DNA of 64,000 bases from NCBI GenBank assembly GCA_022800935.1, contig JAAWRH010000016.1:1-64000 (forward strand), written 5' to 3'. This DNA comes from Oscillospiraceae bacterium (GTDB lineage: Bacteria > Bacillota > Clostridia > Oscillospirales > Ruminococcaceae). Under the pieces are notes generated by a model. That model was not told the origin of the DNA and made no database searches. It was given only the letters and a program-made list of their open reading frames with translations. A program made the position numbers and the translations under genes. Shown here in pieces: positions 4,261-20,864 of this stretch. Positions within the stretch are counted from its first letter, which is position 1. The number at the start of each line of letters is the position of its first letter.

Positions 4261-4330
4261 CTAAATATAAGCTGATAAACTTTGAAGAATGACACCATTT
4301 TGGAGTTAATTATTCATTTTACCTGCCGGG

Positions 4331-4356
4331 CGACGGCAAAAGAAAAAAAGCCGTCG
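4331..4356 (+). repeat. Hairpin downstream of the cassette
   Basis: CGACGGC and GCCGTCG form a perfect 7-bp stem around a purine-only loop of 12 bases. No T-run follows. It may assist the stronger terminator just downstream. Confidence 0.45.
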
Positions 4357-4384
4357 TAATGCAGATATATTTTCACGCGCCTTT

Positions 4385-4425
4385 GAAGCGGTGGCTTTGA
4401 TTTTTAGAGCCGCCGCTTCTTTTTG
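4385..4425 (+). terminator. Rho-independent terminator of the sigma/ABC cassette
   Basis: GAAGCGGTGGCT (4385-4396) pairs with AGCCGCCGCTTC (4408-4419), a 12-bp stem with one G-T pair. TTTTT follows directly, about 125 bp after the permease stop. Confidence 0.75.
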
Positions 4426-4494
4426 CATAATTTAAGCAACGACGCCCCTATTTAACCTTGCAATCAGCATGGCGGCATATAGGAGGTTGCCGTT

Positions 4495-4608
4495 ATGTTG
4501 AGTGAAATAGTCTTTACTTATCTGACAAATGGAAGTCTTTTGTCAAAAAAAGTTTATACCTTACAACAGGATATTCCGGGCATTGGTATGAACTGTCAAA
4601 TCAATTAA
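4495..4608 (+). CDS. Small 37-residue protein of the element, function unknown
   Basis: ATG 4495 lies eight bases after AGGAGG, ideal spacing, and the frame ends at TAA 4606-4608. The peptide starts MLSEIVFTYLTNG and has no recognisable motif. It stands between two terminators (4385-4425 and 4638-4668), so it would be a one-gene transcript. The ribosome site and the closing terminator support real expression; no function is proposed. Confidence 0.5.
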   Translation: MLSEIVFTYLTNGSLLSKKVYTLQQDIPGIGMNCQIN

Positions 4609-4637
4609 ATACTGCTGTTATTTCCTATGCGTCTGTC

Positions 4638-4668
4638 TGCGCCTTGCAGGTAGGCGCATTTTCTTTTT
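4638..4668 (+). terminator. Rho-independent terminator after the small ORF
   Basis: TGCGCCT (4638-4644) and AGGCGCA (4652-4658) form a perfect 7-bp stem with a 7-base loop, followed by TTTTCTTTTT. Confidence 0.75.
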
Positions 4669-4786
4669 CCCCCAAAATTTTTTCAAAAAATTTTCAAACT
4701 GATTGGCATAGTTTTGTCGAGTGGAACTGGGGGTTACGAAAGGGGAAGTCATCACCACTTTTGCCAACGCGAAAGGAGGTGAAACC

Positions 4787-5230
4787 ATGAATGAGCCTAT
4801 TCGTACCCAGTGGCAAATCCGTTGTGCTTTTAACGGTTATTGTAAGCGAGCTTTACAGAATGAAATGCTTGCAGCCAAAAGGGATATAAAGCGTCGGCAG
4901 CGACGCGAAGTTACTTTTTCTGACTTAACTTCACAGGAAGAAAAGCAGCTTTTTGTTTGCGACCAGTATTTTGCAGATGATGAAGCTGAAAAATCCTTTG
5001 TTATAGCAGGAAAAGAAATTACTGCAAAGCTGCTTGCCGAAGCTCTGCACTCCCTGCCGGAAGAAAAGCGCGAAGCCGTCCTGCTGTATTATTTCTTTGA
5101 TATGAGTGATGTGGAAATTGCAAAGCTCCACAACATTCCGAGAAGTACCGTACAGTACAGACGGACAAGCTCTTTTGAACTGTTAAAACGCTATTTGGAG
5201 GAACGCGCCTATGACGAAAATGATTGGTAA
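4787..5230 (+). CDS. Sigma-70 family protein of the conjugative element
   Basis: A 147-residue protein with a C-terminal sigma region 4 HTH (about residues 85-145: LHSLPEEKREAVLLYYFF, DVEIAKLHNIPRSTVQYRR). Its N-terminal half is poorly matched to region 2. ATG 4787 follows AAAGGAGGTG. Proteins of this kind sit just upstream of the HTH protein, xis and int in Tn916/Tn1549 elements and are thought to help to control excision or transfer genes. It overlaps the next gene by 20 bp, so translation is probably coupled. It may act as a regulator rather than a true sigma factor. Confidence 0.75.
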   Translation: MNEPIRTQWQIRCAFNGYCKRALQNEMLAAKRDIKRRQRREVTFSDLTSQEEKQLFVCDQYFADDEAEKSFVIAGKEITAKLLAEALHSLPEEKREAVLLYYFFDMSDVEIAKLHNIPRSTVQYRRTSSFELLKRYLEERAYDENDW

Positions 5231-5462
5231 CACCGAACAAGATGAACGCGGCTTGTTACCTTATCCGGTAATCATAGCTGCAATTAAGGGCGACCCGGAA
5301 GCTATGAACATTGTTATACAACATTATGATAGTGAAATAGCTTATCTCTCTATGCGAACTCTCCGCAACGAGCGCGGCAATACTTATTATGGCATAGATG
5401 AAGATATACGCGACCGTTTGCGTTCACACCTTATACGGGCAGTCCTTTCATTCAAAGTTTAA
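5211..5462 (+). CDS. Helix-turn-helix protein of Tn916-like elements
   Basis: An 83-residue protein (LLPYPVIIAAIKGDPEAMN, YGIDEDIRDRLRSHLIRAVL) of the small HTH family found beside the sigma-like gene in Tn916-type elements. It starts inside the preceding gene. The pair probably works together in transcription control of the element. The pattern PEAMNIVIQHYDSEI resembles the start of sigma region 2, so the two neighbouring proteins may represent a split sigma factor: region 2 here, region 4 in the upstream gene. That reading is inference. Confidence 0.75.
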   Translation: MTKMIGNTEQDERGLLPYPVIIAAIKGDPEAMNIVIQHYDSEIAYLSMRTLRNERGNTYYGIDEDIRDRLRSHLIRAVLSFKV

Positions 5463-5874
5463 GATAGTTGCGAGCAGCGTCCCCCTTTCCGCTGCTTACT
5501 TACTTGAACTTTTTTGTTCCTTGACAAAGAAAGCGGCGCAATAGAACGGCAACGCAGCATAAGGCAAATCGGATACGTTCCTTTTGTGTCGAGCCATGCG
5601 GCGGGTACGCCATGACCTTTCTCTTAATAGAAAAGTGAGCGAGAAATACCACACCGTAAAGCAGAGATAGCAGCCTGCGGGCGATAACGCACAGAATACA
5701 TAATGATACTTCCTTACAGCCATAGTCCGAGCGTTAGAAGCGTCGCAGGCAATGGGTAGGGCTTCGGCAGACCGCCGGAGGGGTGCAACTCCCATGAGGT
5801 TACGCTAATAGCCGTCCGATTAAAGCCTATGTTACAGATTAACTTTTGACCCATTAAGAAAGGGGGACGACAAA
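5463..5874. other. Gap of 412 bp before xis with no convincing gene
   Basis: The only long frame (5496-5795, minus) lacks a ribosome site and has an unusual amino-acid mix, so it is not called. The last 120 bp are rich in short G+C self-complementary pieces (for example around 5755-5800) and may form a structured xis/int leader. No terminator or clear promoter was found. Confidence 0.4.
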
Positions 5875-6078
5875 TTGAACAATAACGACGTGCCGATTTG
5901 GGAAAAGTACACGCTTACCATAGAAGAAGCAGCAAAATATTTCCGTATCGGAGAAAGCAAGCTGCGGAAACTGGCAGAAGAAAATCCCGTCCCGGACTGG
6001 GTAATGATGAACGGAAACCGTATTCAGATTAAGCGGAAGCAGTTTGAAAAAATGATTGATACGGTGGACGCAATATGA
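5875..6078 (+). CDS. xis: Excisionase of the conjugative element
   Basis: A 67-residue basic protein starting at TTG 5875, which lies eight bases after AAGGGGGACG. It contains the Tn916 Xis signature [20 protein letters not shown] and ends in [18 protein letters not shown]. Xis is a winged-helix DNA-bending protein that binds next to the element ends and steers the integrase toward excision. It sits 79 bp upstream of int, as in the family. Full length compared with Tn916 Xis (67 residues). Confidence 0.95.
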
Positions 6079-6157
6079 TAGTGAAATCGAGCCTTGAATG
6101 TGGTACAATGTAGTCAAGCATATCAAGGCTCTTTCCATTATGGAAAGGAGCATAACG

Positions 6158-7351
6158 ATGTCGGAAAAAAGACGGGATAATAAAAATCGTATTCTCCGCA
6201 CCGGAGAGAGCCAGAGAAAAGACGGGAGATATGCCTACAAATATATAGATACCTTTGGGAAACCGCAGTTTGTGTATTCTTGGAAGTTAGTGCCTACGGA
6301 CAAAACCCCGGCAGGAAAACGCGACGATATAGCGTTGAGGGAAAAAGAGAAAGAAATCCAAAAAGACCTTGACGACGGTATCGACCATATCGGAAAGAAA
6401 ATGACAGTCTGCCAGCTCTACGCAAAGCAGATACGCCACCGGGCAAATGTGCGGCATGGTACAAAGCAGGGGCGAAAACAGCTTATGCGGATTTTGCAGG
6501 AGGATAAACTTGGAGCCTGCCGGATTGAAAATGTGAAGCTCTCCGACGCAAAGGAATGGGCGTTACGCATGAAAGAAAAAGGTTACGGCTTCAAGACTAT
6601 CAACAACTACAAGCGTTCCTTAAAGGCTGCCTTTTACACAGCCATACAGGACGATTGTATTCGTAAAAATCCGTTTGACTTCCAGTTGAACACAGTCCTT
6701 GAAGATGATACGGAACCAAAGGAACCTCTATCCCCTACGCAGGAAGCGGCTTTTCTGTCCTTTGTGCAGCATGATAAAGTCTATCAGAAATACTACGACG
6801 AGATTATCATACTGTTAGGGACAGGGCTTCGCATTTCGGAACTCTGCGGACTGACGGAAGCTGACATTGACTTAGACAAACAGCTTATCAATGTAGACCG
6901 CCAACTTTTGAAGATTGCAGACGTGGGCTACTATGTGGAAACGCCTAAGACCAAAAGCGGCAACCGGGTTATTCCTATGAGTGAAAAAGTGTTGGAAGCA
7001 TTTCAACGGGTGCTGAACAAACGGAAATATGCACAGCCTGTTATTTTGGAGGGCTACACAAAGTTTCTGTTCCTTAACCGGAACGGCTTGCCAAAAGTGG
7101 CAGTCAACTATGAAAGTATGTTCCGGGGGCTTGTAAGGAAATACAACAAAACGCAAAAGGTAGCATTGCCAAAGGTAATGACACCGCACACCTTACGCCA
7201 CACATTCTGCACCACGTTAGCAAATGCAGGAATGAACCCAAAGGCATTGCAGTACATCATGGGACATTCCAACATCAATATGACGCTGAACTATTACGCG
7301 CATACGACTTCCGAAACGTCGATAACAGAAATGAAGCGGCTGATTGCCTAA
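6158..7351 (+). CDS. int: Tyrosine recombinase (integrase) of the Tn916/Tn1549 family
   Basis: A 397-residue integrase from ATG 6158 (ribosome site GGAAAGGAG). It has an arm-binding N-terminal domain (about 1-70), a core-binding domain (about 80-180) and a catalytic domain. Catalytic residues can be read: R225 in GTGLRISELCG, H344 and R347 in PHTLRHTF, H370 in MGHSN, and the nucleophile Y379 or Y380 in LNYYAH. These positions match Tn916 Int, so the enzyme should be active. It cuts and rejoins the element ends during excision and integration. Repeats that could be its arm sites lie just downstream. Confidence 0.97.
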   Translation: MSEKRRDNKNRILRTGESQRKDGRYAYKYIDTFGKPQFVYSWKLVPTDKTPAGKRDDIALREKEKEIQKDLDDGIDHIGKKMTVCQLYAKQIRHRANVRHGTKQGRKQLMRILQEDKLGACRIENVKLSDAKEWALRMKEKGYGFKTINNYKRSLKAAFYTAIQDDCIRKNPFDFQLNTVLEDDTEPKEPLSPTQEAAFLSFVQHDKVYQKYYDEIIILLGTGLRISELCGLTEADIDLDKQLINVDRQLLKIADVGYYVETPKTKSGNRVIPMSEKVLEAFQRVLNKRKYAQPVILEGYTKFLFLNRNGLPKVAVNYESMFRGLVRKYNKTQKVALPKVMTPHTLRHTFCTTLANAGMNPKALQYIMGHSNINMTLNYYAHTTSETSITEMKRLIA

Positions 7352-7794: not shown

Positions 7795-9057
7795 TTAACC
7801 CTCAAACGCTTCCTCACAAACCTGGTCCAGTGAGAAGATATCCCCCTCCCGCTTCTCCCTGTGCATCCATCTGCCCCTGGTGAAATCGGGAACCTCCACC
7901 GGCGCGGAGCCCATGGCAATGGACTGCTCGCTCAGACAGGTGACAGCCATCCAGCTTGCTGCGTCGTATACGTCGATGGGGAAGGGCTTGTTCTCCTGTA
8001 TCGACTGGATAAACGCCCGGAATACCAGGTAATCCATTCCCCCATGGCCGCCGGTAATCCCCGATTCCTGGAATTCCTTCCACAGGGGATGGATAAATTC
8101 CTCCATATACGCCTTGTCCGGTTCAAAGACATGATCGCCCTTCTCGTTGGGCTTGGTCCTGTCTTCCAGGTAGATGCCCCGGTTGTCCTCCTCCCAGAGC
8201 CCTTTTACCCCCTGTAGATAACCGCCCCGCGAATAGGGCCTGGGCAGGGAACAGTCGTGGGTCAGCACAATGGACTCCCCGTTGGCACATTTGATCATGG
8301 TAGTCACCACATCCCCCTGGCGGAACTTGGCCTTAACAAGGGGGGAATCGGGGCGGTTTTTCTTCATCCACTCGTGTTCGCCAAGCGCCTTGGTGGACAT
8401 GGAAACCAGGGTGAGCATCCGGTTGCCGTGGTTCAGGTTCAGGTACTTGGCAATGGGCCCCAGCTCGTGGGTGGGGTACAGCTCCCCGTCGCGGTTGAGG
8501 AAGTTGTCCTGGCGGTAGTGGCGCTTGATATCTCCATTGCCGATTTCCTCCCGCAGGTCGTGCTGGTATCCGCCCCGGCAGTGGACCAGCTCCCCGAACA
8601 TGCCCTTCTTGATCATGTTGAGCAGCGTCATCTCCACCTGGCCATAGCAGCAGTTTTCCAGCAGCATCACCGGGATGCCGGTCTTCTCGCTGGTACGGAC
8701 CAGCTGCCAGCACTCCTCCACCGAGGTGGCCCCACCCACCTCCATGGCCGGGATAATCCCGTGCTCCATGGCGTCCACGGCAATGGTGATGTGGGTGGTC
8801 CAGTCGGTCATGATGACCACCGCCTCAATATCGGCGCGGGAGGTCACTTCCCGGTAATCCAGGCAGGCGTCCGGGGTGTTGCCCTTGGCCTTGGTTACAT
8901 GCTCTTGGGCCTCCTTCACCCGGTCCTCGTACACATCGCAGACCGCCAACACCTCCACGTCCGGCATAGCCAGCAGCAGGTCCAGCTGGGGCAGGCCCCT
9001 ATGCCCTACGCCGATCATTCCCAGGCGCACCGTGCGCCCAACAGCTCCGAGTTTCAT
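7795..9057 (-). CDS. GH109-type NAD-dependent glycosidase (alpha-N-acetylgalactosaminidase-like)
   Basis: About 420 residues from ATG 9057, after AGAAGG at good spacing. A Rossmann NAD-binding start (MIGVGHRG, Gly 16/18/21) is followed by the Gfo/Idh/MocA C-terminal domain. GH109 hallmarks are seen: VGGATSVEECWQL, MLLENCCYGQ, and GGHGGMDYLVF followed by IDVYDAASW. GH109 enzymes hold NAD and cleave the glycosidic bond by transient oxidation at C3 with elimination and addition. Known members act on alpha-GalNAc. No signal peptide is visible, so it would work on imported oligosaccharides. It is the last gene of the leftward sugar locus. Family membership is firm; the exact substrate is not. Confidence 0.8.
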   Translation of the reverse strand: MKLGAVGRTVRLGMIGVGHRGLPQLDLLLAMPDVEVLAVCDVYEDRVKEAQEHVTKAKGNTPDACLDYREVTSRADIEAVVIMTDWTTHITIAVDAMEHGIIPAMEVGGATSVEECWQLVRTSEKTGIPVMLLENCCYGQVEMTLLNMIKKGMFGELVHCRGGYQHDLREEIGNGDIKRHYRQDNFLNRDGELYPTHELGPIAKYLNLNHGNRMLTLVSMSTKALGEHEWMKKNRPDSPLVKAKFRQGDVVTTMIKCANGESIVLTHDCSLPRPYSRGGYLQGVKGLWEEDNRGIYLEDRTKPNEKGDHVFEPDKAYMEEFIHPLWKEFQESGITGGHGGMDYLVFRAFIQSIQENKPFPIDVYDAASWMAVTCLSEQSIAMGSAPVEVPDFTRGRWMHREKREGDIFSLDQVCEEAFEG

Positions 9058-9094
9058 GTAAATACCTTCTTTCTCGCCCGCGCTTCCGGCAGGC

Positions 9095-9976
9095 TTAAAT
9101 TTCAATCAGCACAATGCTGGCAACCGCCATAACCATGCCCACAATCTGGTCCTTCCGGGGCCGCTCGTGGAACAGAATCAGCGAATAGAGGATGGAGAGC
9201 ACCAGCCCGCTGCCGTTGTTGATGGTGTAGAGGATGCTGGACTCCATCTGGGGCAGGATGTACATCAGCAGGTTGACCGCTGCTGTGGCGGATATCCCGC
9301 AGACCAGCAGGGAGAGGGCGGCCCTTTTGCCCATGTGAAAGCCCTCCGCCAGCTTTTTCCCCCGCTTCCGTGCGATTTCCACCGCCGCCGCAGTGACAGC
9401 CGACAGGGCAAACAGGATGGTGAGCATCTCCGCCCGTTCCGCCCCCTTCATCACCTCCGCCTGGAGGGTCATGATAACCCCGTACAGGCCGTTGGCGATA
9501 AACAGCAGGATACACCAGATGTAATAGGCCCCGGTGTTCCCCTTAAAGGAGATTCCCTTTAGGTTCATCACCACCAGGGAGGCCAGCATCAGAATCACGG
9601 CGAATATCTGTAGGCCGGTGAGCTGTTCGTCGAGGAACACGGTCCCCACCAGGGCCGGGCCAAGGATGCCGCCGTACATGCAGAAGATCATCATAAAGGC
9701 ATAGGAGCCCCGGCTGCCCGCCTCTATCATTGAGTTGTTGTAGAGGAACAGAACCGCCGCGTTAAGCAGCCCAAACAGCCAGGTCTGCCAGGAAGGCCGG
9801 AAGGAAAATCCGTTGGCCGCCAGGGAGGTAAAGGCGATAAACAGCCCATAACACACTGAAAAGACCGCCGTGGACTCCGTCTTGTCCGGCCCCGCATAGT
9901 TGGCGGCGTAAATCCGGGTAAAAAGGGACTGGAAGGAATAGAGGAAAGCCATGACGAACAGCAGAAAAATCAGCAT
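9095..9976 (-). CDS. DMT-superfamily (EamA-type) transporter
   Basis: A 293-residue membrane protein with about ten hydrophobic helices in two repeats of five, as in drug/metabolite transporters. The second repeat starts near residue 145. There is no signal peptide or soluble domain. It overlaps the upstream oxidoreductase gene by 7 bp and is followed by the GH109 gene, so it belongs to the sugar locus. It may export a by-product or import a small sugar or acid; the substrate cannot be predicted. Confidence 0.8.
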   Translation of the reverse strand: MLIFLLFVMAFLYSFQSLFTRIYAANYAGPDKTESTAVFSVCYGLFIAFTSLAANGFSFRPSWQTWLFGLLNAAVLFLYNNSMIEAGSRGSYAFMMIFCMYGGILGPALVGTVFLDEQLTGLQIFAVILMLASLVVMNLKGISFKGNTGAYYIWCILLFIANGLYGVIMTLQAEVMKGAERAEMLTILFALSAVTAAAVEIARKRGKKLAEGFHMGKRAALSLLVCGISATAAVNLLMYILPQMESSILYTINNGSGLVLSILYSLILFHERPRKDQIVGMVMAVASIVLIEI

Positions 9977-11109
9977 CTTCCCTCACCCTTATCTAATCCT
10001 GCCGCCTTCCCATCCCATTTGGGGAGCTCCCGGCTTGCCCAGCACCGGAACAGCTCCTTCGCCAATCCTGGGACCCAGCGGAGGCCATCGGTCTCTGTGA
10101 TCCAGCTTTCCGGGAAGGGGGTGGATTCCGGCTGGATTTTGCGCAGCTTCTCCAGGGCATCGATGTGCCAGGAAGCCATTTCCCCGGTACAGAAGATGGG
10201 GGTATCCTCCCGGATGGCGTCCACCATGTTCCACAGGTTTTCGCCATAGTCCTGGTAGACGACGCCGTAGTCCTTCACCTGACCGTCGGTGAACTCCGCA
10301 GTCAGGCTGGTTCCCCTTGTCCCCGCCCCACCGAAGCGGATCACCGCCTTTTCATAGGTGTATTCAAACATTGGGTCCTGCTGCTCCCCCCGGTCCACCG
10401 CATGGGAGACCGCGATAAACAGCTCCGCCCCGTTTTCGGATTTTCCCTTCATCACCGCGGTGTCAAAGGTTTCGATGGGGTTCGCCCGGTAGGTGGCGCA
10501 TTCCAGGGAAGAAACCGGCGCGCCGCACACATAGAGCATATTCATCAGGTAATGGGCGGTGGCGTTGCTCAGCACATTGTCGAAGATGGGCCTGCCCTGG
10601 GCGTCAAATTTCTTCCCGGCCCAGCCGCTCCCCCGATGGTAGTAGGTGCAATCCCTGGGCCACAGCACCATGGCCTTCAGGGAGACCGGTTTGCCGAACA
10701 CCCCGGCGTCCACGTCCGCCTTCATGGCCCGGACCACCGGGTCATAGCAGAGCTGGAACCCCACCGAGAGCTTCTTCCCCGCCCTGTCGCGGGCCTCCAG
10801 CATCCGCCGGACCTCCTCCATGGTGGCGGCGATGGGCTTCTCCGATACCACATGACAGCCGTGTTCAAATGCCTCAATCGCCTGTTCCGCGTGGAACTGT
10901 ATCGGCGTCCCCAGTATCACGATATCCGGTCTGTGCTCCCGGTACAGTTCCTCGGAGCTGCCATACACCGGGCACAAACCGCACTCCTTGACAAAGGGGT
11001 CCACCGCACCCACCAGGCGCAGCTTTTCCCGTTTGGGCTGCTTCATCACGTGGAGATAGTTGGCCGCAAAGCCGCCCACCCCAAAGAGGGCTATCTTGAG
11101 TTCCTCCAT
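9970..11109 (-). CDS. Gfo/Idh/MocA-family oxidoreductase (third of the locus)
   Basis: A 379-residue NAD(P)-dependent sugar oxidoreductase with a Rossmann start (IALFGVGGFAANYL) and the EKP motif (VVSEKPIAAT), whose Lys is usually catalytic. The C-terminal alpha/beta domain follows. It differs clearly from the two duplicated paralogues at 13.9-16.5 kb and from the GH109 protein. Such enzymes oxidise or reduce sugar hydroxyls, often at C3. Its start is 29 bp from the upstream kinase stop, and it overlaps the DMT gene. Substrate unknown. Confidence 0.85.
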   Translation of the reverse strand: MEELKIALFGVGGFAANYLHVMKQPKREKLRLVGAVDPFVKECGLCPVYGSSEELYREHRPDIVILGTPIQFHAEQAIEAFEHGCHVVSEKPIAATMEEVRRMLEARDRAGKKLSVGFQLCYDPVVRAMKADVDAGVFGKPVSLKAMVLWPRDCTYYHRGSGWAGKKFDAQGRPIFDNVLSNATAHYLMNMLYVCGAPVSSLECATYRANPIETFDTAVMKGKSENGAELFIAVSHAVDRGEQQDPMFEYTYEKAVIRFGGAGTRGTSLTAEFTDGQVKDYGVVYQDYGENLWNMVDAIREDTPIFCTGEMASWHIDALEKLRKIQPESTPFPESWITETDGLRWVPGLAKELFRCWASRELPKWDGKAAGLDKGEGRC

Positions 11110-11138: not shown

Positions 11139-11699
11139 TCACTTCATCTGCTCCCGGGCCCAGGCTTCCACCACCGAGGCGGGCTTTGAAAAGTCCGAAG
11201 CCCCGCTGAACACAAGGTCTGCCTTTCGCCTGGTGGGGAGAAAATACCGCTCCTCTCCGAACTTGGCGGACTCCAGGTAATAGTCCGCCACCTCCTCCAT
11301 GGGGACGCCCCACATCTTCATGTTGCGCTTGATTCTGCGGTACATCCGCTCGTCCGAGTCCAGGTCGATGAAGATTTTCAGGTCCATCATCTCCACCAGC
11401 TCCGGGAAATACAGGACGCTTAATCCCTCCACAATCACCACCTGGGATTCGTCACCCTCCTGGCGGCTCTGCCGGACGGCCTCTATCACCTTCTCCAAGT
11501 CGATGGACTCCGGGGAGTTCCAGTCCTCGTACTCCCTGCCGGAGGAGGGGGAAATCATTTTGGGGAGGGGCCGCCGGAAAAATCCGTCGGTGGAAATCAT
11601 CACCGTCTTTACCGGGTTCAGCCGCTCCGCCAATATTTTGGCAAAGGTAGATTTTCCGCTGCCGGAGCCTCCGGCAATGCCGATGGTCAAATGGCTCAT
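11139..11699 (-). CDS. Uridine kinase / phosphoribulokinase-like small kinase
   Basis: A 186-residue P-loop kinase from ATG 11699 (GGGGG about 9 bases upstream), with Walker A GGSGSGKS at residues 10-17. MISTDGFFRR follows, as in uridine and pantothenate kinases, then VVIVEGLSVL with D/E metal ligands and a lid with RRIKRNMK. The family phosphorylates nucleosides, ribulose-phosphate, pantothenate or sugars. Placed in a sugar locus between a LarA racemase and an oxidoreductase, it more likely phosphorylates a sugar or sugar-acid intermediate than uridine. That is inference from context. Confidence 0.7.
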   Translation of the reverse strand: MSHLTIGIAGGSGSGKSTFAKILAERLNPVKTVMISTDGFFRRPLPKMISPSSGREYEDWNSPESIDLEKVIEAVRQSRQEGDESQVVIVEGLSVLYFPELVEMMDLKIFIDLDSDERMYRRIKRNMKMWGVPMEEVADYYLESAKFGEERYFLPTRRKADLVFSGASDFSKPASVVEAWAREQMK

Positions 11700-11712: not shown

Positions 11713-12996
11713 TTAATCCACAGGTTTTTGGACAATCACGCCCACGCCGTCGGGGATCACCGTGACCGAAGCCGAAGCATTCCTCAGCATAGTATCTGCT
11801 TTCTTTATAGCGGCGTTGACGTCTTCCGCCCAGCCCATGTGCATGGCTTCAATCAGCTCTTTGTTTTCCGGCCCGGTGACAAATATCACCGAAGCCTTTT
11901 CCATCACCCTGGCCAGAATCTGGGCCTGCCACTGGTCCATCAGGGTGTTGTCCGCCGGGATGTTCTCAATGTCGCGGGTGACCTCCTGCGGGTTCTCCCG
12001 GTCGGCGAACCAGTGGAAGAAATCCTTCCCCCCGTGTCCGTCCCCCAGGGCCGCGCAGATGACAATCACCCCGCCCTCCCGGACGCAGACCTCCGCCGCG
12101 GTAAGTCCCTTCACCGACTGGTACACATTCTGGTCCAGGGGATACCCCCCGTTGGAGGTTACGGCGATGTCCGCCCCCACGCCGGGGACCTGGGTCATCT
12201 CCAGACACATCTGGCAGCCCTTTTCATGGGCCTTGACGCTGTCCCCGGCCACGGCGGCCACAATCCGCTTGTCCTCGTCCAGCAGGACGTTTAGGATAAA
12301 GGCCAGCCCCGCCTGTTCGGCGGCAAAGGCCATATCCCGGTGGATGGGGTTGCCCTCCAGGATGCCCTGCCTTGCCAGGGGGTCCTGGATAAACCCGGCG
12401 TTGTGGTTATACAGCACCGTCCTTTTCCCCGCTGCGCCGGGGAGGATGCTCTTTCTCCCGCCGGAAAAGCCCGCGAAGAAGTGGGGCTCGATGAATCCCT
12501 CGGATACCACCAGGTCCGCCTCCTTCACCAGCCGGTTGAGCCAAAGCTCCCCGCCGGAGGGAAGGGTCCCGAACAGCACCATATTTTCATCGTCCTTGGC
12601 GTTGTGGATGACAAACCGCTCCTTCTCCACCGTCTCCGCCCCAAACTTGGCGCGCATCTCCTCCATGGTGGGGGGACGGTGCATCCCGGTGGCGATGAGT
12701 ATGGTGATATCCGCCGCCGGATTCCCCGCCCGGATTTCCGCCAGATACAGCGGCAGGGTGATATGGCTGGGCAGCGGCCTGGTGTGGTCGCTGGTAATCA
12801 CCAGGATTTTTTCCTTATCCTTTGCCAGCTCCCCCAGGCGGAGGCTCCCGATGGGATGTTCTAGGGCGTCCCGGACAATCTGCTCCTGGGTGCGGCTTTC
12901 CGCCTCCGGCTTCCGGGGGGAGATCACCGCCCGGACCCGGTCCTCCGATATTTCCAGGGTTTGCTTTGTTTTGCCGTAGGGAATTTCAATCTTCAA
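11713..12996 (-). CDS. larA: LarA-family nickel-dependent 2-hydroxyacid racemase/epimerase
   Basis: About 427 residues from TTG 12996, nine bases after AGGGGGAC. Every key residue of Lactiplantibacillus LarA can be placed with a constant offset of two: D70 and R73 (SDHTRP), H106 (GMHRPPT), H172 (EPHFFAGFSGG), K182 (GGRKS; carries the nickel-pincer cofactor) and H198 (YNHN). The enzyme should therefore bind nickel pincer nucleotide and interconvert stereoisomers by hydride transfer. Homologues outside lactate racemases act on other 2-hydroxyacids and on sugar acids such as gluconate. The sugar-locus setting favours a sugar acid here. Cofactor genes larB, larC and larE are not in the window. 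Confidence 0.85.
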   Translation of the reverse strand: MKIEIPYGKTKQTLEISEDRVRAVISPRKPEAESRTQEQIVRDALEHPIGSLRLGELAKDKEKILVITSDHTRPLPSHITLPLYLAEIRAGNPAADITILIATGMHRPPTMEEMRAKFGAETVEKERFVIHNAKDDENMVLFGTLPSGGELWLNRLVKEADLVVSEGFIEPHFFAGFSGGRKSILPGAAGKRTVLYNHNAGFIQDPLARQGILEGNPIHRDMAFAAEQAGLAFILNVLLDEDKRIVAAVAGDSVKAHEKGCQMCLEMTQVPGVGADIAVTSNGGYPLDQNVYQSVKGLTAAEVCVREGGVIVICAALGDGHGGKDFFHWFADRENPQEVTRDIENIPADNTLMDQWQAQILARVMEKASVIFVTGPENKELIEAMHMGWAEDVNAAIKKADTMLRNASASVTVIPDGVGVIVQKPVD

Positions 12997-13160: not shown

Positions 13161-13925
13161 TTAGCGGTAATCCTCGCACACGGTTTCGCCCTTGAGGGTG
13201 ACAATCTCCTTGGCGTCGGCGTAGGAATTGGCATCCACAAACAGCTGGAAGCTGTCGTGGGTCTTGAGCATGGTGCCGGGAACCTTATTGGTCAGCTCAT
13301 TCGCCAGGGTCTGGGCGACCGCCCAGGACTTCTCGGCATGGGGAACAGCGGAGATGATATGCTTGCACTGCATAATCTGCCACACGCTCATGCTGACTGC
13401 CTGCTTGGGCACGTCGTCGATGGTGGCGAACCATCCCTCGCCCACCTGCTGGTTGCGGCAGGCGGTGTCCAGGTTGACAATCAGGTAGGAGACCTTGGTC
13501 TCAAAGTCCGCGGGCGGGTCGTTGAAGGCAATATGGGCGTTGCGGCCGATGCCGATCAATCCCACGTCGATGGGGGCCTTCTTAATCTCCTCGGTCAGCT
13601 TGGCGATACCCTCCTGGGTGCCGTCCACAAAGTGGGTCATTTTCACGCCGGTGGGGGCCACAAACCGCTCCTTTAAGTACTTGCGGAAGCTGGCGGGATG
13701 GGTTTCCGGCAGGTCCACATACTCGTCTAGGTGGAACATCTCCACCTTGCTCCAATCGATGTCCTCCTTCACCAGGTGCTCCAGGGTCTCAAACTGGGAA
13801 GCGCCGGTGGAAAGAATGATTCTGGCCACGCCCTTTTCGGCAATGGCGGCCTTGATGATTTCAGCGGAGGCCTTGGCGGCCCTCATGCCCAGCTCGCCGG
13901 CGGTTTTGGAAATGACTATTTTCAT
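13161..13925 (-). CDS. NagB-like glucosamine-6-phosphate deaminase/isomerase homologue
   Basis: A 254-residue member of the NagB/6-phosphogluconolactonase fold. HLDEYVDLPETHPASF matches the NagB D72 region (D67 here) and IGIGRNAHIAFNDPP matches the second active-site loop. In E. coli NagB that loop contains D141, H143 and E148. Here the residues are N129, H131 and D136, so the aspartate that helps to open the ring is replaced. NagB normally converts glucosamine-6-phosphate to fructose-6-phosphate and ammonia. The changed loop suggests another phosphorylated or free amino sugar, or an isomerase. It stands between the duplicated oxidoreductases and larA. Confidence 0.75.
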   Translation of the reverse strand: MKIVISKTAGELGMRAAKASAEIIKAAIAEKGVARIILSTGASQFETLEHLVKEDIDWSKVEMFHLDEYVDLPETHPASFRKYLKERFVAPTGVKMTHFVDGTQEGIAKLTEEIKKAPIDVGLIGIGRNAHIAFNDPPADFETKVSYLIVNLDTACRNQQVGEGWFATIDDVPKQAVSMSVWQIMQCKHIISAVPHAEKSWAVAQTLANELTNKVPGTMLKTHDSFQLFVDANSYADAKEIVTLKGETVCEDYR

Positions 13926-13958: not shown

Positions 13959-15194
13959 TTACTTCATCTCAGGGTAGAACTCTCCCAGGAACTCCTTCAG
14001 GTACACTGCCCGGTCCTCGGCCATGGATTTGTTAGCCGCAATGCCTATCCCTATGGACATGGCCCCGGCCCTGGTGTCCGCCATCTGGTGCAGCGGATCG
14101 GAGGTATAACCCCGGAACAGGTGGTCCCGCAGGGCCGGGTCCGCGCCGCCGTGGCCGCCCGCAGTGGGTTTCACATGGCTGCGGTCGTAGTTGACGCACT
14201 CGCCCTCCCGGTTGTAGAACTTGATGGTCTCCACGTTAAAGGCGTTGTCCGCCTCCAGTCGCCCGTTTTTGCCGTTGATGACAATCTTCATGCACTCATA
14301 GGGGGAGTGGGCGGTCAGGGAGTAACTCATCACCGCGCCCTTGGCGTACTTGACGCTCACCGAAACGCTGTCCTCGATGTCAATCACATCGGAGAACAGG
14401 CAGCGGTCCCGCAGATACCCGTCCACGTCCTCGCAGTCCTGGTATAGTTTTTTCAGCGAAATGCCGTTTTCCTCACTGTCAATGTTCATATAGAACTCAC
14501 AGGTTTTCTTATAGGGGCAGGTCAGGCAGCGCTCGCCATGCTCCCTTTTGGCGCCGTCGCCGTAAAACCGGCGGGTACCAAAAGCGTTTACCTTTACGGG
14601 CTCGTCGTCAATCAGCCAGTTTGCCAGGTCAAAGTGGTGGGTAGATTTGTGAATGAGCAGAGAACCGGAGTTCTCCCGGATAGAGTGCCAGCGCCGGAAG
14701 TAATCCGCGCCGTGGGAGGTGTCCAGCAGCCACTCAAAGTGAACGCTGAGAATATCCCCCAGCATTCCGCTGGAAATCAGCTCCTTTAGCTTTACATAGA
14801 AATTCATGAACCGCAGGTTAAAGGTAACGGTTACCTTGTGACCGGTTCTCTTTTCTGCCTCCAGGATATTGGCGCACATTTCAGCGGTGGTGGTCATGGG
14901 CTTCTCGGTGATGACGTCGCAGCCGAACTCCAGCGCCTTGATGATGTACTTTTCATGCATACTGTCCTTGGTGGTTACGATAACCACATCGGGCTTGTGG
15001 TCCTGAAGCATCTGATCAAAATCGGTGTAAGCGGGAATCACCTTACCCACATGCTCCGAAGCGAACCTGGCGCGCTTCAGGTTCAGGTCACAGACCGCGG
15101 CCAGCTCGGCACAATCGCCGTACTCCTTTACCAGCGGCTCAATGTAGGAACCCAAGCCCCGGAAGCCCGTGCCCACCAGCACATACTTTTTCAT
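13959..15194 (-). CDS. Gfo/Idh/MocA-family oxidoreductase, duplicate B
   Basis: A 411-residue oxidoreductase with Rossmann motif VGTGFRG (Gly 8/10/13), EKP motif (VITEKPMTT) and the substrate-side HHFDLANWLI. A Cys cluster, GERCLTCPYKKTCEFY, lies near residues 220-235, with further Cys in DCEDVDGYLRDRC. This could bind zinc or an Fe-S centre and is unusual for the family. It is highly similar over its full length to the gene just upstream (15223-16455), a recent tandem duplication. The family oxidises or reduces sugar hydroxyls with NAD(P). It is followed 33 bp later by the NagB-like gene. Confidence 0.85.
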   Translation of the reverse strand: MKKYVLVGTGFRGLGSYIEPLVKEYGDCAELAAVCDLNLKRARFASEHVGKVIPAYTDFDQMLQDHKPDVVIVTTKDSMHEKYIIKALEFGCDVITEKPMTTTAEMCANILEAEKRTGHKVTVTFNLRFMNFYVKLKELISSGMLGDILSVHFEWLLDTSHGADYFRRWHSIRENSGSLLIHKSTHHFDLANWLIDDEPVKVNAFGTRRFYGDGAKREHGERCLTCPYKKTCEFYMNIDSEENGISLKKLYQDCEDVDGYLRDRCLFSDVIDIEDSVSVSVKYAKGAVMSYSLTAHSPYECMKIVINGKNGRLEADNAFNVETIKFYNREGECVNYDRSHVKPTAGGHGGADPALRDHLFRGYTSDPLHQMADTRAGAMSIGIGIAANKSMAEDRAVYLKEFLGEFYPEMK

Positions 15195-15222: not shown

Positions 15223-16455
15223 TTAAAACTGATTCATCTCCGGGTAAAAATCCCCCAAAAACTCCTTCAGGTACACCGCCCGGTCCTCTGCCATGGACTT
15301 GTTGGCCGCGATACCTATCCCTATGGACATGGCCCCCGCCCTGGTGTCCGCCATCTGGCCCAGGGGGTCCTCGGTGTAGCCCCGGAACAGATTGTCCCTT
15401 AACGCCGGGTCCGCCCCGCCGTGTCCGCCGGGCAGCGGCTTCACATGGCTCCGGTCATAGACAATGCACTCGCCTTCCCGGTTATACACCTTGACATGCT
15501 CCCCGCCAAAGGCCGTGTCCGCCTCCAGCCGCCCCTTGGTCCCATTGATCACCAGCTTCATGCACTCATACGGGGAATGGGCGGTCAGGGAGTAGCTCAT
15601 CACCGCCCCCTTGGCGTACTTGACGTTGACCGAAACGCTGTCCTCAATGTCAATTTCATCTGAGAACACGCACCGGTCCCGGATGTACCCGTCCTCGCTT
15701 TCGCAGTCCAGGAACATCTTCTTCATCTCGCCACGGTCCTCGGTCTCTATGTTCATGTAGAATTCGCAGGTTTTCTTATAGGGACAGGTTAGGCACCGCT
15801 CGCCCCGCTCCTCCCTGGTGTGGCCGTAGAACCGCCGGGTCCCAAAGGCGTTTACCTTCACCGGTTCGTCCTCAATCAGCCAGTTGAGCAGATCAAAGTG
15901 ATGGGTGGATTTATGTATCAGCAGCGACCCGGAGCAGGCGCGGATGGAGTGCCACCTGCGGAAGTAGGACGCCCCGTGGCTGGTGTCCAGCAGCCATTCG
16001 TAGTGGACGCTGAGCACATCCCCCACAACCCCCTCCCGCATCAGCTCCTTGAGCTTGACGCAGAAGTTCATAAACCGCATGTTGAAGGTGACAGTCACCT
16101 TGTGGCCAGTGCGTTTTTCCGCCTCCAGGATTTCGGCGCACATCTTTTCGTCGGTGGTCATGGGCTTTTCGCTGATGACGTCACAGCCGAACTCCAGCGC
16201 CTTAATCGTATATTCCGCGTGGGCGCAGTCCTTGCAGGTGACAATCACCACATCCGGCTTATGATCCTGGAGCATCTGGTCAAAGTCTGTGTAAGCGGGG
16301 ATATTCCCCAGGCAGCTAGCCGCGTATTTGGCCCGCTTGCCGTTGATGTCGCAGACCGCAACCAATTCCGCGCAGTCCTTGTAGTTTTCCACCAGCGGCC
16401 TGCCGTAGGAGTCCAGCCCCCGGCCCCCGGTGCCGACAATCACATACTTTTTCAA
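15223..16455 (-). CDS. Gfo/Idh/MocA-family oxidoreductase, duplicate A
   Basis: A 410-residue paralogue of the next gene, with the same motifs: VGTGGRG, ISEKPMTT, HHFDLLNWLI, the Cys-rich stretch RCLTCPYKKTC, and the C-terminal GGHGGADPALRDNLFRGY followed by AGAMSIGIGIAANKSM. Differences concentrate in the first 60 residues (nucleotide-binding half) and around 235-255. The two copies may thus differ in cofactor or work as a heteromer. It lies 33 bp from the serine hydrolase gene in the same operon. Confidence 0.85.
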   Translation of the reverse strand: MKKYVIVGTGGRGLDSYGRPLVENYKDCAELVAVCDINGKRAKYAASCLGNIPAYTDFDQMLQDHKPDVVIVTCKDCAHAEYTIKALEFGCDVISEKPMTTDEKMCAEILEAEKRTGHKVTVTFNMRFMNFCVKLKELMREGVVGDVLSVHYEWLLDTSHGASYFRRWHSIRACSGSLLIHKSTHHFDLLNWLIEDEPVKVNAFGTRRFYGHTREERGERCLTCPYKKTCEFYMNIETEDRGEMKKMFLDCESEDGYIRDRCVFSDEIDIEDSVSVNVKYAKGAVMSYSLTAHSPYECMKLVINGTKGRLEADTAFGGEHVKVYNREGECIVYDRSHVKPLPGGHGGADPALRDNLFRGYTEDPLGQMADTRAGAMSIGIGIAANKSMAEDRAVYLKEFLGDFYPEMNQF

Positions 16456-16488: not shown

Positions 16489-17955
16489 TTACTCTTTAAC
16501 AGCGTGACCCGCCAAATATCCCCGGTAATCGCTAAAGAAGTTTTCGGCGTTCTTGGTCATAAACACGGTCAGAGTGTCGTCCTCAAAGCTGAACTGCATT
16601 TTCAGGGTGCCTACATAGTCATCTACCGAATAGACCAAACCCAGCAGCGTGTTCTCCAGGGGCCAGGCAGCGGCGGAGATACAGCGGTAGTTTTTCTCCA
16701 TGACATTGATCCGCTTTCCGGCGTATTTGTCCGGGAATTCAAAGAAATCGTACCCGCCCCGGAACAGCTTGATCACCTGCTCCCCCTGTCCCTTATCATA
16801 GGTTAGGGTATAGCACTTGTCGGAAACGTCCACCCGCATCCACTTCCATTTGAACAGGTTCTCCTCAAACTCGTACTTCACGCCGGAGATTTTTTCCGCC
16901 ATGGGGCTGTCCGCCTTGCCGTTGGGCAGGGGGATGGACAGAACCCGGCGGCTTTCCAGCTCCGCCTGCTTTTCCGGGTTCTCCGGAAGGGGTTCGTCGG
17001 AAATCTTCTTTAAGAAGCGGTAGTACATCTGCCGCAGGGCGTCGTCGGCGTTGTTGATGCCCTGGTTGTCGGCGGTGGTAATCATGATGGCGTCGTATTT
17101 CGGCATGATAAAGGCAAACTGGCTGCCCATGCCGTTGCAGGAAAAGCCCCCTTCTTTCAGCATCCAGAACTGGTAGCCATAGCCGATGGGGTTGGGATAG
17201 CCGGGGTCGGAAACCGTGGTGTCAATCTGCCAGGAGGTGGCCGCCTGCATATACTCCCGGCTCACCAGCTGCTTTCCGTTCCATTCTCCCTGCTGGAGGC
17301 AGAACTGGGCGAACTTGGCCAAATCCCTGGGAGTTGCCAGAATGCCGCTGCCAGTCCAGGAGCCCCCCTCCGGGGTCTCCACGCACCAGATGTCCTTGGA
17401 AATCCCCAGCTCATCCAGCAGGGGGCGCATGTACTCCAGGATGGGCTTCCCTGCCAGTTTCTCCACGATGCCGCAGAGGGTGGTAGTACCGGCGGTGTCG
17501 TAGTGGAAGACCAGACCCGGCTTGTGCATGGCGTAGGGGGCGTTAAAGAAGCTCTTGACAAAGTTCTCGGTGTCCCAGTCATAGGAGCCGGTTTCGTTAA
17601 AGACCGACATCCGCAGCAGGTCGCTGACGGTGGCCTCCATCATGTAGGGGTTGGGATTTTCCGGCAGGTATTCCGGGAAGATATCCGCAACCTTGGTGTC
17701 CAGAGAGAGCTTGCCCTCGGTAATCATCATGCCGATGGCCACAGAGGTAAAGCTCTTGCTCACCGAGTACATCCGGTGCTTCCGGTCCCGGTCATATACC
17801 GGCTCGCTGTAGGCCTCGGCCGCTATTTTGCCGTGGCGCAGCAGCAGCACGCTGTGCATCACCAGGCGGTGTTCCTTCATTTCGTCCAGCAGGTCTATCA
17901 CGGCCTGGGAGGGAATCCCCAGGGATTCCGGGGTTGCAGAGGTAAATTCAAACAT
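16489..17955 (-). CDS. Serine hydrolase of the beta-lactamase/CubicO family
   Basis: About 488 residues from ATG 17955 (GGAAGGAG seven bases upstream). The N-terminal 330 residues are a class C beta-lactamase-like domain with S64-x-x-K67 (YSVSKSFTS). YHYDTAG stands at the usual YxN site and NGMGSQ at the KTG-like site. A roughly 150-residue beta-rich C-terminal domain follows. No signal peptide, so it is likely cytoplasmic. Members are esterases, amidases or transpeptidase relatives. Here it probably removes an acyl group from imported sugar substrates. It is not expected to confer drug resistance. Confidence 0.75.
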   Translation of the reverse strand: MFEFTSATPESLGIPSQAVIDLLDEMKEHRLVMHSVLLLRHGKIAAEAYSEPVYDRDRKHRMYSVSKSFTSVAIGMMITEGKLSLDTKVADIFPEYLPENPNPYMMEATVSDLLRMSVFNETGSYDWDTENFVKSFFNAPYAMHKPGLVFHYDTAGTTTLCGIVEKLAGKPILEYMRPLLDELGISKDIWCVETPEGGSWTGSGILATPRDLAKFAQFCLQQGEWNGKQLVSREYMQAATSWQIDTTVSDPGYPNPIGYGYQFWMLKEGGFSCNGMGSQFAFIMPKYDAIMITTADNQGINNADDALRQMYYRFLKKISDEPLPENPEKQAELESRRVLSIPLPNGKADSPMAEKISGVKYEFEENLFKWKWMRVDVSDKCYTLTYDKGQGEQVIKLFRGGYDFFEFPDKYAGKRINVMEKNYRCISAAAWPLENTLLGLVYSVDDYVGTLKMQFSFEDDTLTVFMTKNAENFFSDYRGYLAGHAVKE

Positions 17956-18018
17956 TTTTTCCACTCCTTCCAGCGGCTTTTTGTAAAAATAGCATATCTC
18001 CTGTTTGATGACGCAAAA

Positions 18019-18171: not shown

Positions 18172-19827
18172 TTACTTGTTGGCGGCTCTCCAAGTATCCA
18201 ACTGGCTCTGGGCCTCGTCGATGACCTTTTGAATGCCGGAGGACTCCAGCTTCGCCAGGAACTCGTCCAGCCAAGCGTCAACCTTGGGCTCCACAACCTC
18301 ATAAGCTTCGCCTTCCAGAGCCTTGAAGCCCCAGATAAGATCCGTGGTATACTCGCCAACAACGGAGGAGCAGGCAGAGATCTCATTCTCAACGGCCTTA
18401 GGATCAAAGATAAAGCCCATATTGGTGTTGGTATTGGCGCTCTCGTTGGCAGCTTTCAGACCATCCAACAAGTTAGGATCGGTTCCCGCGGGAACTGCCA
18501 GCAGGTCCATGATGGAGCCAAACTGTGCGCCGTACCAGCAGAAGTAGGCTCTATTGGAAGGATCTTCGTTAGGGGTGCCGGTGAAGTCGGCAATACCCTG
18601 CTCGGTGGAGGACATATTCCAGTGGGTTCCTTCAATGCCGAAGCGGAGAGTGGTGGCCACATAAGGATCGGTGTTGATAATCTCAAGGGCCATCATAGCG
18701 CGTTCAGGATTTTTGGAAACGGTGCTGATGCAGTTGACCGCTTGGTGCAGGTAGTTGGTGGAAGCAATGTTCTGGTCAAAGGGAACAATGGCGGAGTCAA
18801 ACTGATCGGAGGTATTGTTCTTAGCGACAGAAATAACGCCGGAACGAATACCATAGAAGAAGTAATCGCCCCTGTAGTACTCAATGCGGTCCTGGTCATG
18901 ATACCAAACCTGCACGGGAACCAGTCCGTCGGCAACCAGCTTGGCCTGCCTGTGGGCGTAATCACGGTATTCGTCAGTGGCATAAAGGTTGAATACCTTC
19001 TCACCACTGCCCTGGCCCTTGTAGTCCTCAATGCCGGGGATATTTGCAGCCAATAGGTTGGTGCTGATGGTCTCATATCGGGCGAAGTCACCGATACCCA
19101 TCATGTCACGGGTAATAGGCTCGGAAGCCAAATCGGGGTACTTCTCATTGCGCTTCTGGTAAGCGTCGTACATGAACTGATAGACATCCTGACCGTTGTG
19201 GATCTTGTCGGGTATGGTTATACCCAAGTCGTTGGCCATGGTCTCGTTGTACTGCATGGATTGAATCTCGCAGGAATCCTTGTAAGAGGGAATTCCGTAG
19301 ATCTTGCCGTCAATCTTCATGGCGTCCCAGTATCCTTCGGGAATCAAAGCAAGGGTCTTGGGGGCGTACTGAGTCAACAGCTCGTCGATGGGAATAAAGG
19401 CTTCCTTTCTCACATAATCAACATAACCGATAGCAGATCCCTGGGCATTGACAATGTCAGTGGACTGGCCGGACATGATGATAGTGGAAACCTTCTGCTG
19501 ATACTCATCACTAGGTATCAGATGGGTATTCAGTGTGGCGTTGATCTGCTCCTCCATGTATTTGCTCACCTCGCCCAGAACGGTGGAATCATCAGGATGG
19601 GTACCCTCAGATACATACCATTCCAAGGTTACAGGATCCAGAGTAGCTTCTGATGGTGCTTCACTGGACGTGGAGGGAGAGGTGGAGGCGGAGCCGGAAG
19701 GTTGCGCCTGGGATTGGGATTGAGACTGAGACTGAGAGGAGGAGTTGCTTCCGGAGCACCCGGAGGCCATTCCGCACAGCATTGCCGCCGCGAGGACGAC
19801 TGACAGTTTCTTGGACATATTGCTCAT
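18172..19827 (-). CDS. ABC transporter sugar-binding lipoprotein (LplA/YtcQ type)
   Basis: About 551 residues from ATG 19827, five bases after AGGAGGT. A lipoprotein signal ends in GMASGC with Cys24 as lipidation site. A low-complexity Ser/Gln linker (residues 26-60) follows, then a large extracellular solute-binding domain of the type that pairs with LplB/LplC permeases. It captures oligosaccharides at the cell surface. It is encoded directly after the two permease genes and before a strong hairpin. Length is typical of this subgroup (500-560 residues). Substrate unknown; the enzyme set downstream suggests modified or acetylated amino-sugar or uronate glycans. Confidence 0.9.
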   Translation of the reverse strand: MSNMSKKLSVVLAAAMLCGMASGCSGSNSSSQSQSQSQSQAQPSGSASTSPSTSSEAPSEATLDPVTLEWYVSEGTHPDDSTVLGEVSKYMEEQINATLNTHLIPSDEYQQKVSTIIMSGQSTDIVNAQGSAIGYVDYVRKEAFIPIDELLTQYAPKTLALIPEGYWDAMKIDGKIYGIPSYKDSCEIQSMQYNETMANDLGITIPDKIHNGQDVYQFMYDAYQKRNEKYPDLASEPITRDMMGIGDFARYETISTNLLAANIPGIEDYKGQGSGEKVFNLYATDEYRDYAHRQAKLVADGLVPVQVWYHDQDRIEYYRGDYFFYGIRSGVISVAKNNTSDQFDSAIVPFDQNIASTNYLHQAVNCISTVSKNPERAMMALEIINTDPYVATTLRFGIEGTHWNMSSTEQGIADFTGTPNEDPSNRAYFCWYGAQFGSIMDLLAVPAGTDPNLLDGLKAANESANTNTNMGFIFDPKAVENEISACSSVVGEYTTDLIWGFKALEGEAYEVVEPKVDAWLDEFLAKLESSGIQKVIDEAQSQLDTWRAANK

Positions 19828-19925
19828 AAGAAACCTCCTGTTTTTCACTTTATAGGTGTGTATTTTCTTCAAGCTGGGTCGGTAAGCCCAGCGTTGAATT
19901 CGGATGTAAGCTTACCCTTGGAATA

Positions 19926-20864
19926 TCAGCCCTTCACACTGCCCACAGTCAGGCCGTGGATGAAGTACTTCTGGAAAAATGGATAAGCGCAGAGAATGGG
20001 GAAGATGGATATTATCAGGATTGCCATTCTGGTTTGCTCGGTGGGCATGGACTTCAGAAGGGTCATGCCGTCGGGAGTATTGGCGTAGGAGGAGTTGTTC
20101 CGGATAAAGTCGATCTTCTTCTGGATGCGTTCCAGCATGGTCTGCACCGGAATCAGCTTGGGATTCTCAATGTACAGCATAGCGGTGAACCATTCATTCC
20201 ACTTGCCTACAAAAAGGAACAAAGCGATGGTGGCAAGGCCCGCCACACCCAAGGGAAGGACAATGCGGTTAAAGACAGTAAACTCGTTTGCGCCGTCGAT
20301 CTGCGCTGCGTCCATCATCTCCTCCGGAATGGTGCTGTTGATAAAGGTTCTGAGCACCACGATATTAAAGGGGCTGACCAAACTGGTGAGAATTAGAATC
20401 CAAATGGTGTCATACAGGTGCAGGACGTTTACGTTGATTATGTAAGACGGAACCAGGCCACCGGAAAAAAGCATGGTAAAGAAGGGAATAAAGGTATAGA
20501 ATTTTTTGCAGGAAAACCGCTTCTGAGCCAAGACAAAGGCATACATAGCCATCATCATAACGCCCAAGAAGGTGGAGACTACCGCGACGATAACTGTTAT
20601 CTTGTAGGAATCCAGCAGCTGGGAGCCGGTCTTAAACAAACTCTGATAAGAAGTAAAGGAGATCTCCGAGGGGAAAAGCTGGAAGCCGTTGGCGGTCAGA
20701 CTCTCCGGCGTGGTAATGGAAATGGAGAAAACCAATATTACAGGAAGCACCGTCGTCACCGCGAACAGCGTCAGAATGACGATGAACAAGGCGTTTGTAG
20801 CGGGCTTGACCCGGTTGATTTTGGAGAAAGAATCCTCCACAACAGGTTCTTTGTTTCTTGCCAT
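19926..20864 (-). CDS. Carbohydrate ABC transporter permease (LplC type)
   Basis: A 312-residue inner-membrane permease with six helices. The EAA loop (EEMMDAAQIDGANEFTVF) contacts the ATPase, and the C-terminus is PFFQKYFIHGLTVGSVKG. It belongs to the MalG/LplC group of CUT1 importers. It is 19 bp downstream of its LplB-type partner and upstream of the binding protein. No ATPase gene is present in the locus, so it probably uses a shared MsmX-like ATPase encoded elsewhere, as known for related Bacillus importers. Confidence 0.92.
   Translation of the reverse strand: MARNKEPVVEDSFSKINRVKPATNALFIVILTLFAVTTVLPVILVFSISITTPESLTANGFQLFPSEISFTSYQSLFKTGSQLLDSYKITVIVAVVSTFLGVMMMAMYAFVLAQKRFSCKKFYTFIPFFTMLFSGGLVPSYIINVNVLHLYDTIWILILTSLVSPFNIVVLRTFINSTIPEEMMDAAQIDGANEFTVFNRIVLPLGVAGLATIALFLFVGKWNEWFTAMLYIENPKLIPVQTMLERIQKKIDFIRNNSSYANTPDGMTLLKSMPTEQTRMAILIISIFPILCAYPFFQKYFIHGLTVGSVKG

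Follow-up and report, generated by a model that had tools for sequence, protein, structure and literature searches.

A LarA homologue of the lactate-racemase branch in a sugar operon of a clostridial genome in which larB, larC and larE were not found

The closest described relatives of the protein studied here are the LarA proteins of Thermoanaerobacterium thermosaccharolyticum (2yjg) and L. plantarum (LpLarA; 5huq and 6c1w), K184 being the lysine that tethers the NPN cofactor in LpLarA (PMC11770544). LarAH43 of Enterocloster asparagiformis, which belongs to the lactate-racemase group and carries Q at position 359, racemises both glycerate and lactate, with a slight preference for glycerate (PMC11770544). 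According to the same work, the pocket residues are F, F, W and E/Q in lactate racemases, E, V, A and H in gluconate epimerases, and H/Q and K in malate racemases. At the genome level, NPN biology has been described as LarA with LarB, LarC and LarE, or as LarB/C/E alone, and this cofactor factory occurs without LarA in about 15% of genomes (PMC11796402).

The window analyzed here, the whole stretch of 64,000 nucleotides, comes from a gut-type bacterium of the Clostridia and contains a larA homologue on the minus strand at 11713–12996, where the preliminary description had placed it, with a TTG start at 12996, the stop at 11713 and a product of 427 amino acids. The protein is a full-length LarA homologue, as had been stated: it passes the LarA model NF033504 (591.4 bits, cut-off 460), contains both the Lar_N (6e-68) and the LarA_C (3e-60) domains and matches the sequences of 2yjg (6.7e-149) and 5huq (1.1e-128), so that the family assignment is not due to chance. 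Its AlphaFold2 model (pLDDT 92.6) superposed with TM scores of 0.96 to 2yjg, 0.95 to 5huq and 0.67 to 4nar. With the first two it shares the fold and the catalytic and cofactor residues, at 54% identity to the T. thermosaccharolyticum LarA and 47% to LpLarA, but at the site of LpLarA T359 it carries Q in place of T/E, its gene lies in a sugar operon instead of among lactate genes, and its genome is without larB/C/E. The gluconate 2-epimerase GntE of Thermotoga maritima (4nar) shares the LarA superfamily and the two catalytic histidines, while it differs in fold similarity, pocket and NCBIfam model, and is only 20% identical. The window LarA adds one more protein to an established family, and ordinary chemistry is expected.

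Residues D70, R73, H106, H172, K182 and H198 align with D72, R75, H108, H174, K184 and H200 of LpLarA, and for this reason the constant offset of two given in the preliminary description is correct. Y292, Q293, K296 and W356 likewise match LpLarA Y294, Q295, K298 and W358. The codon of K182, located from the numbering and the alignment, is at 12451–12453. Judged from the alignment, the catalytic and NPN residues are all there, and the claim of a complete nickel-pincer active site is correct. In the proposed mechanism, His106 and His172 would take and give the hydroxyl proton, as in the known reaction, and the C2 hydride would shuttle between the substrate and the NPN ring, which Lys182 tethers, while His198 would be a nickel ligand.

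The gene is the eighth of twelve minus-strand genes that lie close behind one another between 21839 and 7795. Upstream of it are two ABC sugar transporter permeases (20883–21839 and 19926–20864, both PF00528), the solute-binding lipoprotein of an ABC sugar transporter (18172–19872, SBP_bac_8 and DUF3502), a beta-lactamase-fold serine hydrolase (16489–17964, PF00144), two Gfo/Idh/MocA-family oxidoreductases (15223–16455 and 13959–15194, both PF01408 and PF02894) that are paralogues with 754 bits to each other, and a NagB-like protein of the glucosamine-6-phosphate isomerase/deaminase family (13161–13925, PF01182; 2ri0, 3.1e-27). Downstream, a P-loop kinase of the uridine-kinase/phosphoribulokinase family (11139–11699, PF00485; 186 amino acids from an ATG at 11699) is followed by another Gfo/Idh/MocA-family oxidoreductase (9970–11109, PF01408), an EamA/DMT-family transporter (9095–9976, PF00892) and a GH109-like NAD-dependent glycosidase/oxidoreductase (7795–9105, PF21252, 5.9e-62), all on the minus strand. 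Ten of the twelve genes, larA included, are arranged alike in another congeneric species (genome G001, locus L124), whose LarA is 84% identical to that of the window; the two ABC permeases were not seen in this comparison. The association of larA with the operon is therefore conserved, and the sugar operon reported earlier is real. Among about 100 LarA loci compared, this operon was found at no other.

The NagB-like protein scores far under the NagB equivalog cut-offs and has GIGRNAHIAFNDP in place of the GVGNDGHIAFNEP of E. coli NagB. Because of this replacement, a role as a standard glucosamine-6-phosphate deaminase may be doubted. The longest open reading frame of the kinase reaches 11735 and overlaps larA; the protein matches a Thermus uridine kinase at 2.5e-20, has an 81% identical counterpart in the same place at L124, and gave a structure model whose pLDDT of 63 is too low for further use. 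It might serve a sugar, glycerate or a pyridine riboside, between which the sequence does not decide. Just past the operon end, a Tn916-type integrase (6098–7351) and a sigma-region-4 protein (4721–5230) were found, and the region 3136–7351 is likely to form one of the two ends of an integrative element. On the other side, a tandem pair of putative esterases (PF00756, 22768–24336) is divergent from the operon and possibly deacylates the imported glycan.

The preliminary description had proposed to look for larB, larC and larE elsewhere in the genome, and all three are absent from the host genome, which is 99.81% complete. Searches with two LarC models gave no match, the best LarE match reached 34.8 bits against a cut-off of 150, and the sole LarB match, below the cut-off at 37.6 bits, covered the PurE-like half. 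A complete Lar system, LarA with LarB, LarC and LarE, was thus not found in the host. Since the control genomes of T. maritima and C. glutamicum gave the expected matches for LarC and LarB, these searches work. The absence is not taken as proof of an inactive LarA, because the LarAs of genomes without the pathway keep all cofactor residues.

Such pathway-less LarAs recur. In a survey of Clostridia-class genomes, 392 in number and each with a completeness of 95% or more, scored by model cut-offs and counted by hand, LarA was above the cut-off in 50 genomes, 36 with LarC and 14 without LarC above the cut-off. All 14 were also without LarB and LarE above the cut-off; one of them (G189) has a weak LarC fragment. 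They include a genome assembled in one contig (G391), a 100% complete genome with three LarA-model matches (G167), one of whose LarAs has an identical counterpart in a Clostridium thermobutyricum genome, and a genome with four such matches (G432). A second sample consisted of the 50 genomes with the LarAs nearest to that of the window. Here 22 genomes were without LarC, exactly the same 22 without LarB and 21 of them without LarE. Cultured Alkaliphilus peptidifermentans DSM 18978 (L015) is among the 22. The window LarA belongs to a supported clade of 18 pathway-less LarAs and one pathway-bearing LarA, and along well-supported branches of the tree the pathway label switches 11 times or more; therefore the pathway was lost, or LarA was gained alone, many times, although incomplete metagenome bins among the 22 genomes may account for part of this count. 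An assembly gap behind the missing genes was rejected in view of the recurrence in 14 of 50 genomes, the single-contig genome and the matching absence of LarB and LarC.

The residues corresponding to D72, R75, H108, H174, K184 and H200 are kept in 52 of 52 pathway-less LarAs, and those corresponding to Y294, Q295 and K298 in every one with that part of the protein present. Among the 18 pathway-less LarAs grouped around that of the window, identity falls to about 47% with the cofactor residues fixed. Pathway-less LarAs are under purifying selection, with dN/dS values of 0.12 (window/L124) and 0.04 (L022/L036) in two orthologue pairs. Residues with no known task other than holding NPN are thus selected where the known NPN route is absent. 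The operon partners (EtfAB, lactate dehydrogenase and lactate permease) are alike for pathway-less and pathway-bearing LarAs. Intact and selected LarA without LarB/C/E seems to be common in Clostridia.

Other groups in the samples showed their own patterns. A malic enzyme gene adjoins all eight pathway-less E-type LarAs (E at the position of LpLarA T359) of one supported clade (L011, L019, L020, L022, L026, L035, L036 and L043), and nearly all also adjoin an Ldh_2-family (malate/L-lactate) dehydrogenase gene; such neighbors were found beside none of the pathway-bearing LarAs in the sample. Altronate/galactarate dehydratase genes adjoin 8 of 11 LarAs with C at the T359 position (C-type loci L131, L135, L142–L146, L148 and L149), and this distinct context suggests a different substrate. 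Four genomes (G002, G045, G066 and G075) have LarC above the cut-off and no LarB or LarE above it, with LarA in three of the four. They might obtain a nickel-free NPN precursor and only insert nickel at home.

In a tree of 93 LarA proteins, the window LarA shares a branch with the L. plantarum and T. thermosaccharolyticum LarAs in a supported six-member clade. The phylogeny proposed as a check thus placed it inside the lactate-racemase clade. This placement and the absence of larB/C/E are the two outcomes that the preliminary description had named as refuting its reading, and both were observed. Its specificity residues, F173, F174, W356 and Q357, fit the F, F, W, E/Q rule of lactate racemases. 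With the malate racemase models NF052593/NF052595 it gave 367 bits against a cut-off of 500 and 289 against 462, and the malate-type H/Q and K at positions 358/359 are absent, W and Q being found there.

The identity of the residue at position 359 goes with gene context. EtfAB, FAD-linked lactate dehydrogenase or lactate permease genes neighbor 31 of 53 E-type LarAs and 0 of 19 Q-type LarAs (Fisher p 4e-6, kinship ignored). When the tree is considered, the informative pairs all agree but are too few (sign test p about 0.1), so the link is strong by simple count, with few independent changes behind it. To this extent the Q of the window LarA lends some support to the earlier view that the context points away from lactate. 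A glycerate kinase gene adjoins four Q-type LarAs. The nearest relatives outside the genus (L002–L004, about 65% identity) are, like the window LarA, from genomes without larB/C/E, but they are of E type and lie in lactate-oxidation operons with EtfAB and FAD-lactate dehydrogenase; therefore, the E/Q difference in this lineage accompanies the change of operon. LarAH43, compared through its published description, has Q at 359 as in the window LarA; a Q-type LarA of uncultured Enterocloster origin (L033) belongs to a different clade, and LarC and LarB are both present in the genome that encodes it. On the grounds of the F, F, W, Q pocket, the preference of LarAH43, the contexts of Q-type LarAs and the joint E/Q and operon change, our best guess from sequence is that the substrate would be glycerate or a similar small polar 2-hydroxyacid, with lactate second.

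The preliminary description had instead read the enzyme as a sugar-acid 2-epimerase. A hexonate (gluconate/mannonate-type) or amino-sugar-acid 2-epimerase for glycan breakdown would suit an operon with NagB-like and GH109-like proteins, three Gfo/Idh dehydrogenases and an ABC sugar importer. However, the pocket lacks the E, V, A, H set that marks gluconate epimerases (PMC11770544), the GntE/hexonate epimerase model NF052594 gave 38.5 bits against a cut-off of 500, and the protein lies on the lactate-racemase branch. The claim was not borne out; a hexonate is unlikely as substrate, and the epimerase as a whole appears quite improbable. An ordinary lactate racemase, acting for example on D-lactate from amino-sugar material in a genome that lost larB/C/E to an assembly gap, would agree with the branch and the NF033504 match, and Q-type LarAH43 racemises lactate well too (PMC11770544). 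Against the gap stand the completeness of the genome, the lack of the three genes in the congener and the five nearest relatives as well, the finding that precisely the same 22 genomes lack LarB and LarC, and the single-contig genome without larB/C/E, which make this explanation hardly credible.

We rather propose that the window LarA works as an NPN-dependent racemase of 2-hydroxyacids, that it comes from the lactate-racemase branch and was recruited to a sugar-utilization operon, and that the host would load it with NPN or a late precursor from neighboring bacteria. An outside source is proposed because the host cannot make NPN via the known LarB–LarE–LarC route. We give about even weight to this combination of a working NPN racemase, a glycerate-like substrate and a cofactor or late precursor from outside. 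We know of no transporter for NPN or an NPN precursor, and of nothing that shows release of NPN by producers. A conserved-neighbor search over the LarA loci found only known metabolic partners and no gene that accompanies pathway-less LarAs in general. The overlapping kinase was rejected as an NPN-riboside salvage kinase, given its weak likeness to nicotinamide riboside kinase (E 0.001) and its absence beside other pathway-less LarAs; since it is found only in the window and the congener, a link to NPN salvage beyond the genus is unsupported. The EamA transporter, near two other pathway-less loci (L141 and L047) and no pathway-bearing one, was also rejected as an NPN importer, as the cases are too few and the family too common.

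Two readings are the simplest: the cells take up or salvage NPN or one of its precursors, or they have a second synthesis route. A second, unrelated NPN route, with another carboxylase, sulfur-inserting and nickel-inserting enzyme, would be invisible to the LarB/C/E models. It would explain the fully kept cofactor site and the pathway-less genomes of cultured species such as A. peptidifermentans, and recruitable PP-loop and PurE-like proteins are present in nearly all genomes. Three joint replacements would be required, nickel insertion among them, and no new gene recurs beside pathway-less LarAs, so that we consider this route rather unlikely, if still conceivable. An NPN-free function of pathway-less LarAs, with another cofactor or as an apo-protein in a binding or regulatory role, would account for the absence of all NPN synthesis genes, but it fits the residues worst: Lys184, His200 and Arg75, known to hold NPN, are as invariant in the 52 pathway-less proteins as in the pathway-bearing ones, also down to the lowest identities within the window clade, and the operon partners of both groups are the same. 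It is judged improbable.

The unusual point is less the protein than the widespread occurrence of intact LarA without the cofactor pathway. In the open literature searched, the scope of which ended short of the first genome survey (Desguin 2014 in Nat Commun, where genome counts were reportedly first given), there was no mention of NPN scavenging or of LarA without LarB/C/E. We incline, with moderate confidence, to the view that NPN is a shared, vitamin-like cofactor for which about a quarter of the Clostridia with lactate-racemase-type LarA are auxotrophs with salvage, or else that an undescribed second NPN pathway exists. As some pathway-less species are cultured, the question is directly testable. 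If true, an NPN transporter, a salvage kinase or an alternative synthesis awaits discovery, and the conversion of D- and L-hydroxyacids in gut communities may hinge on cofactor exchange.
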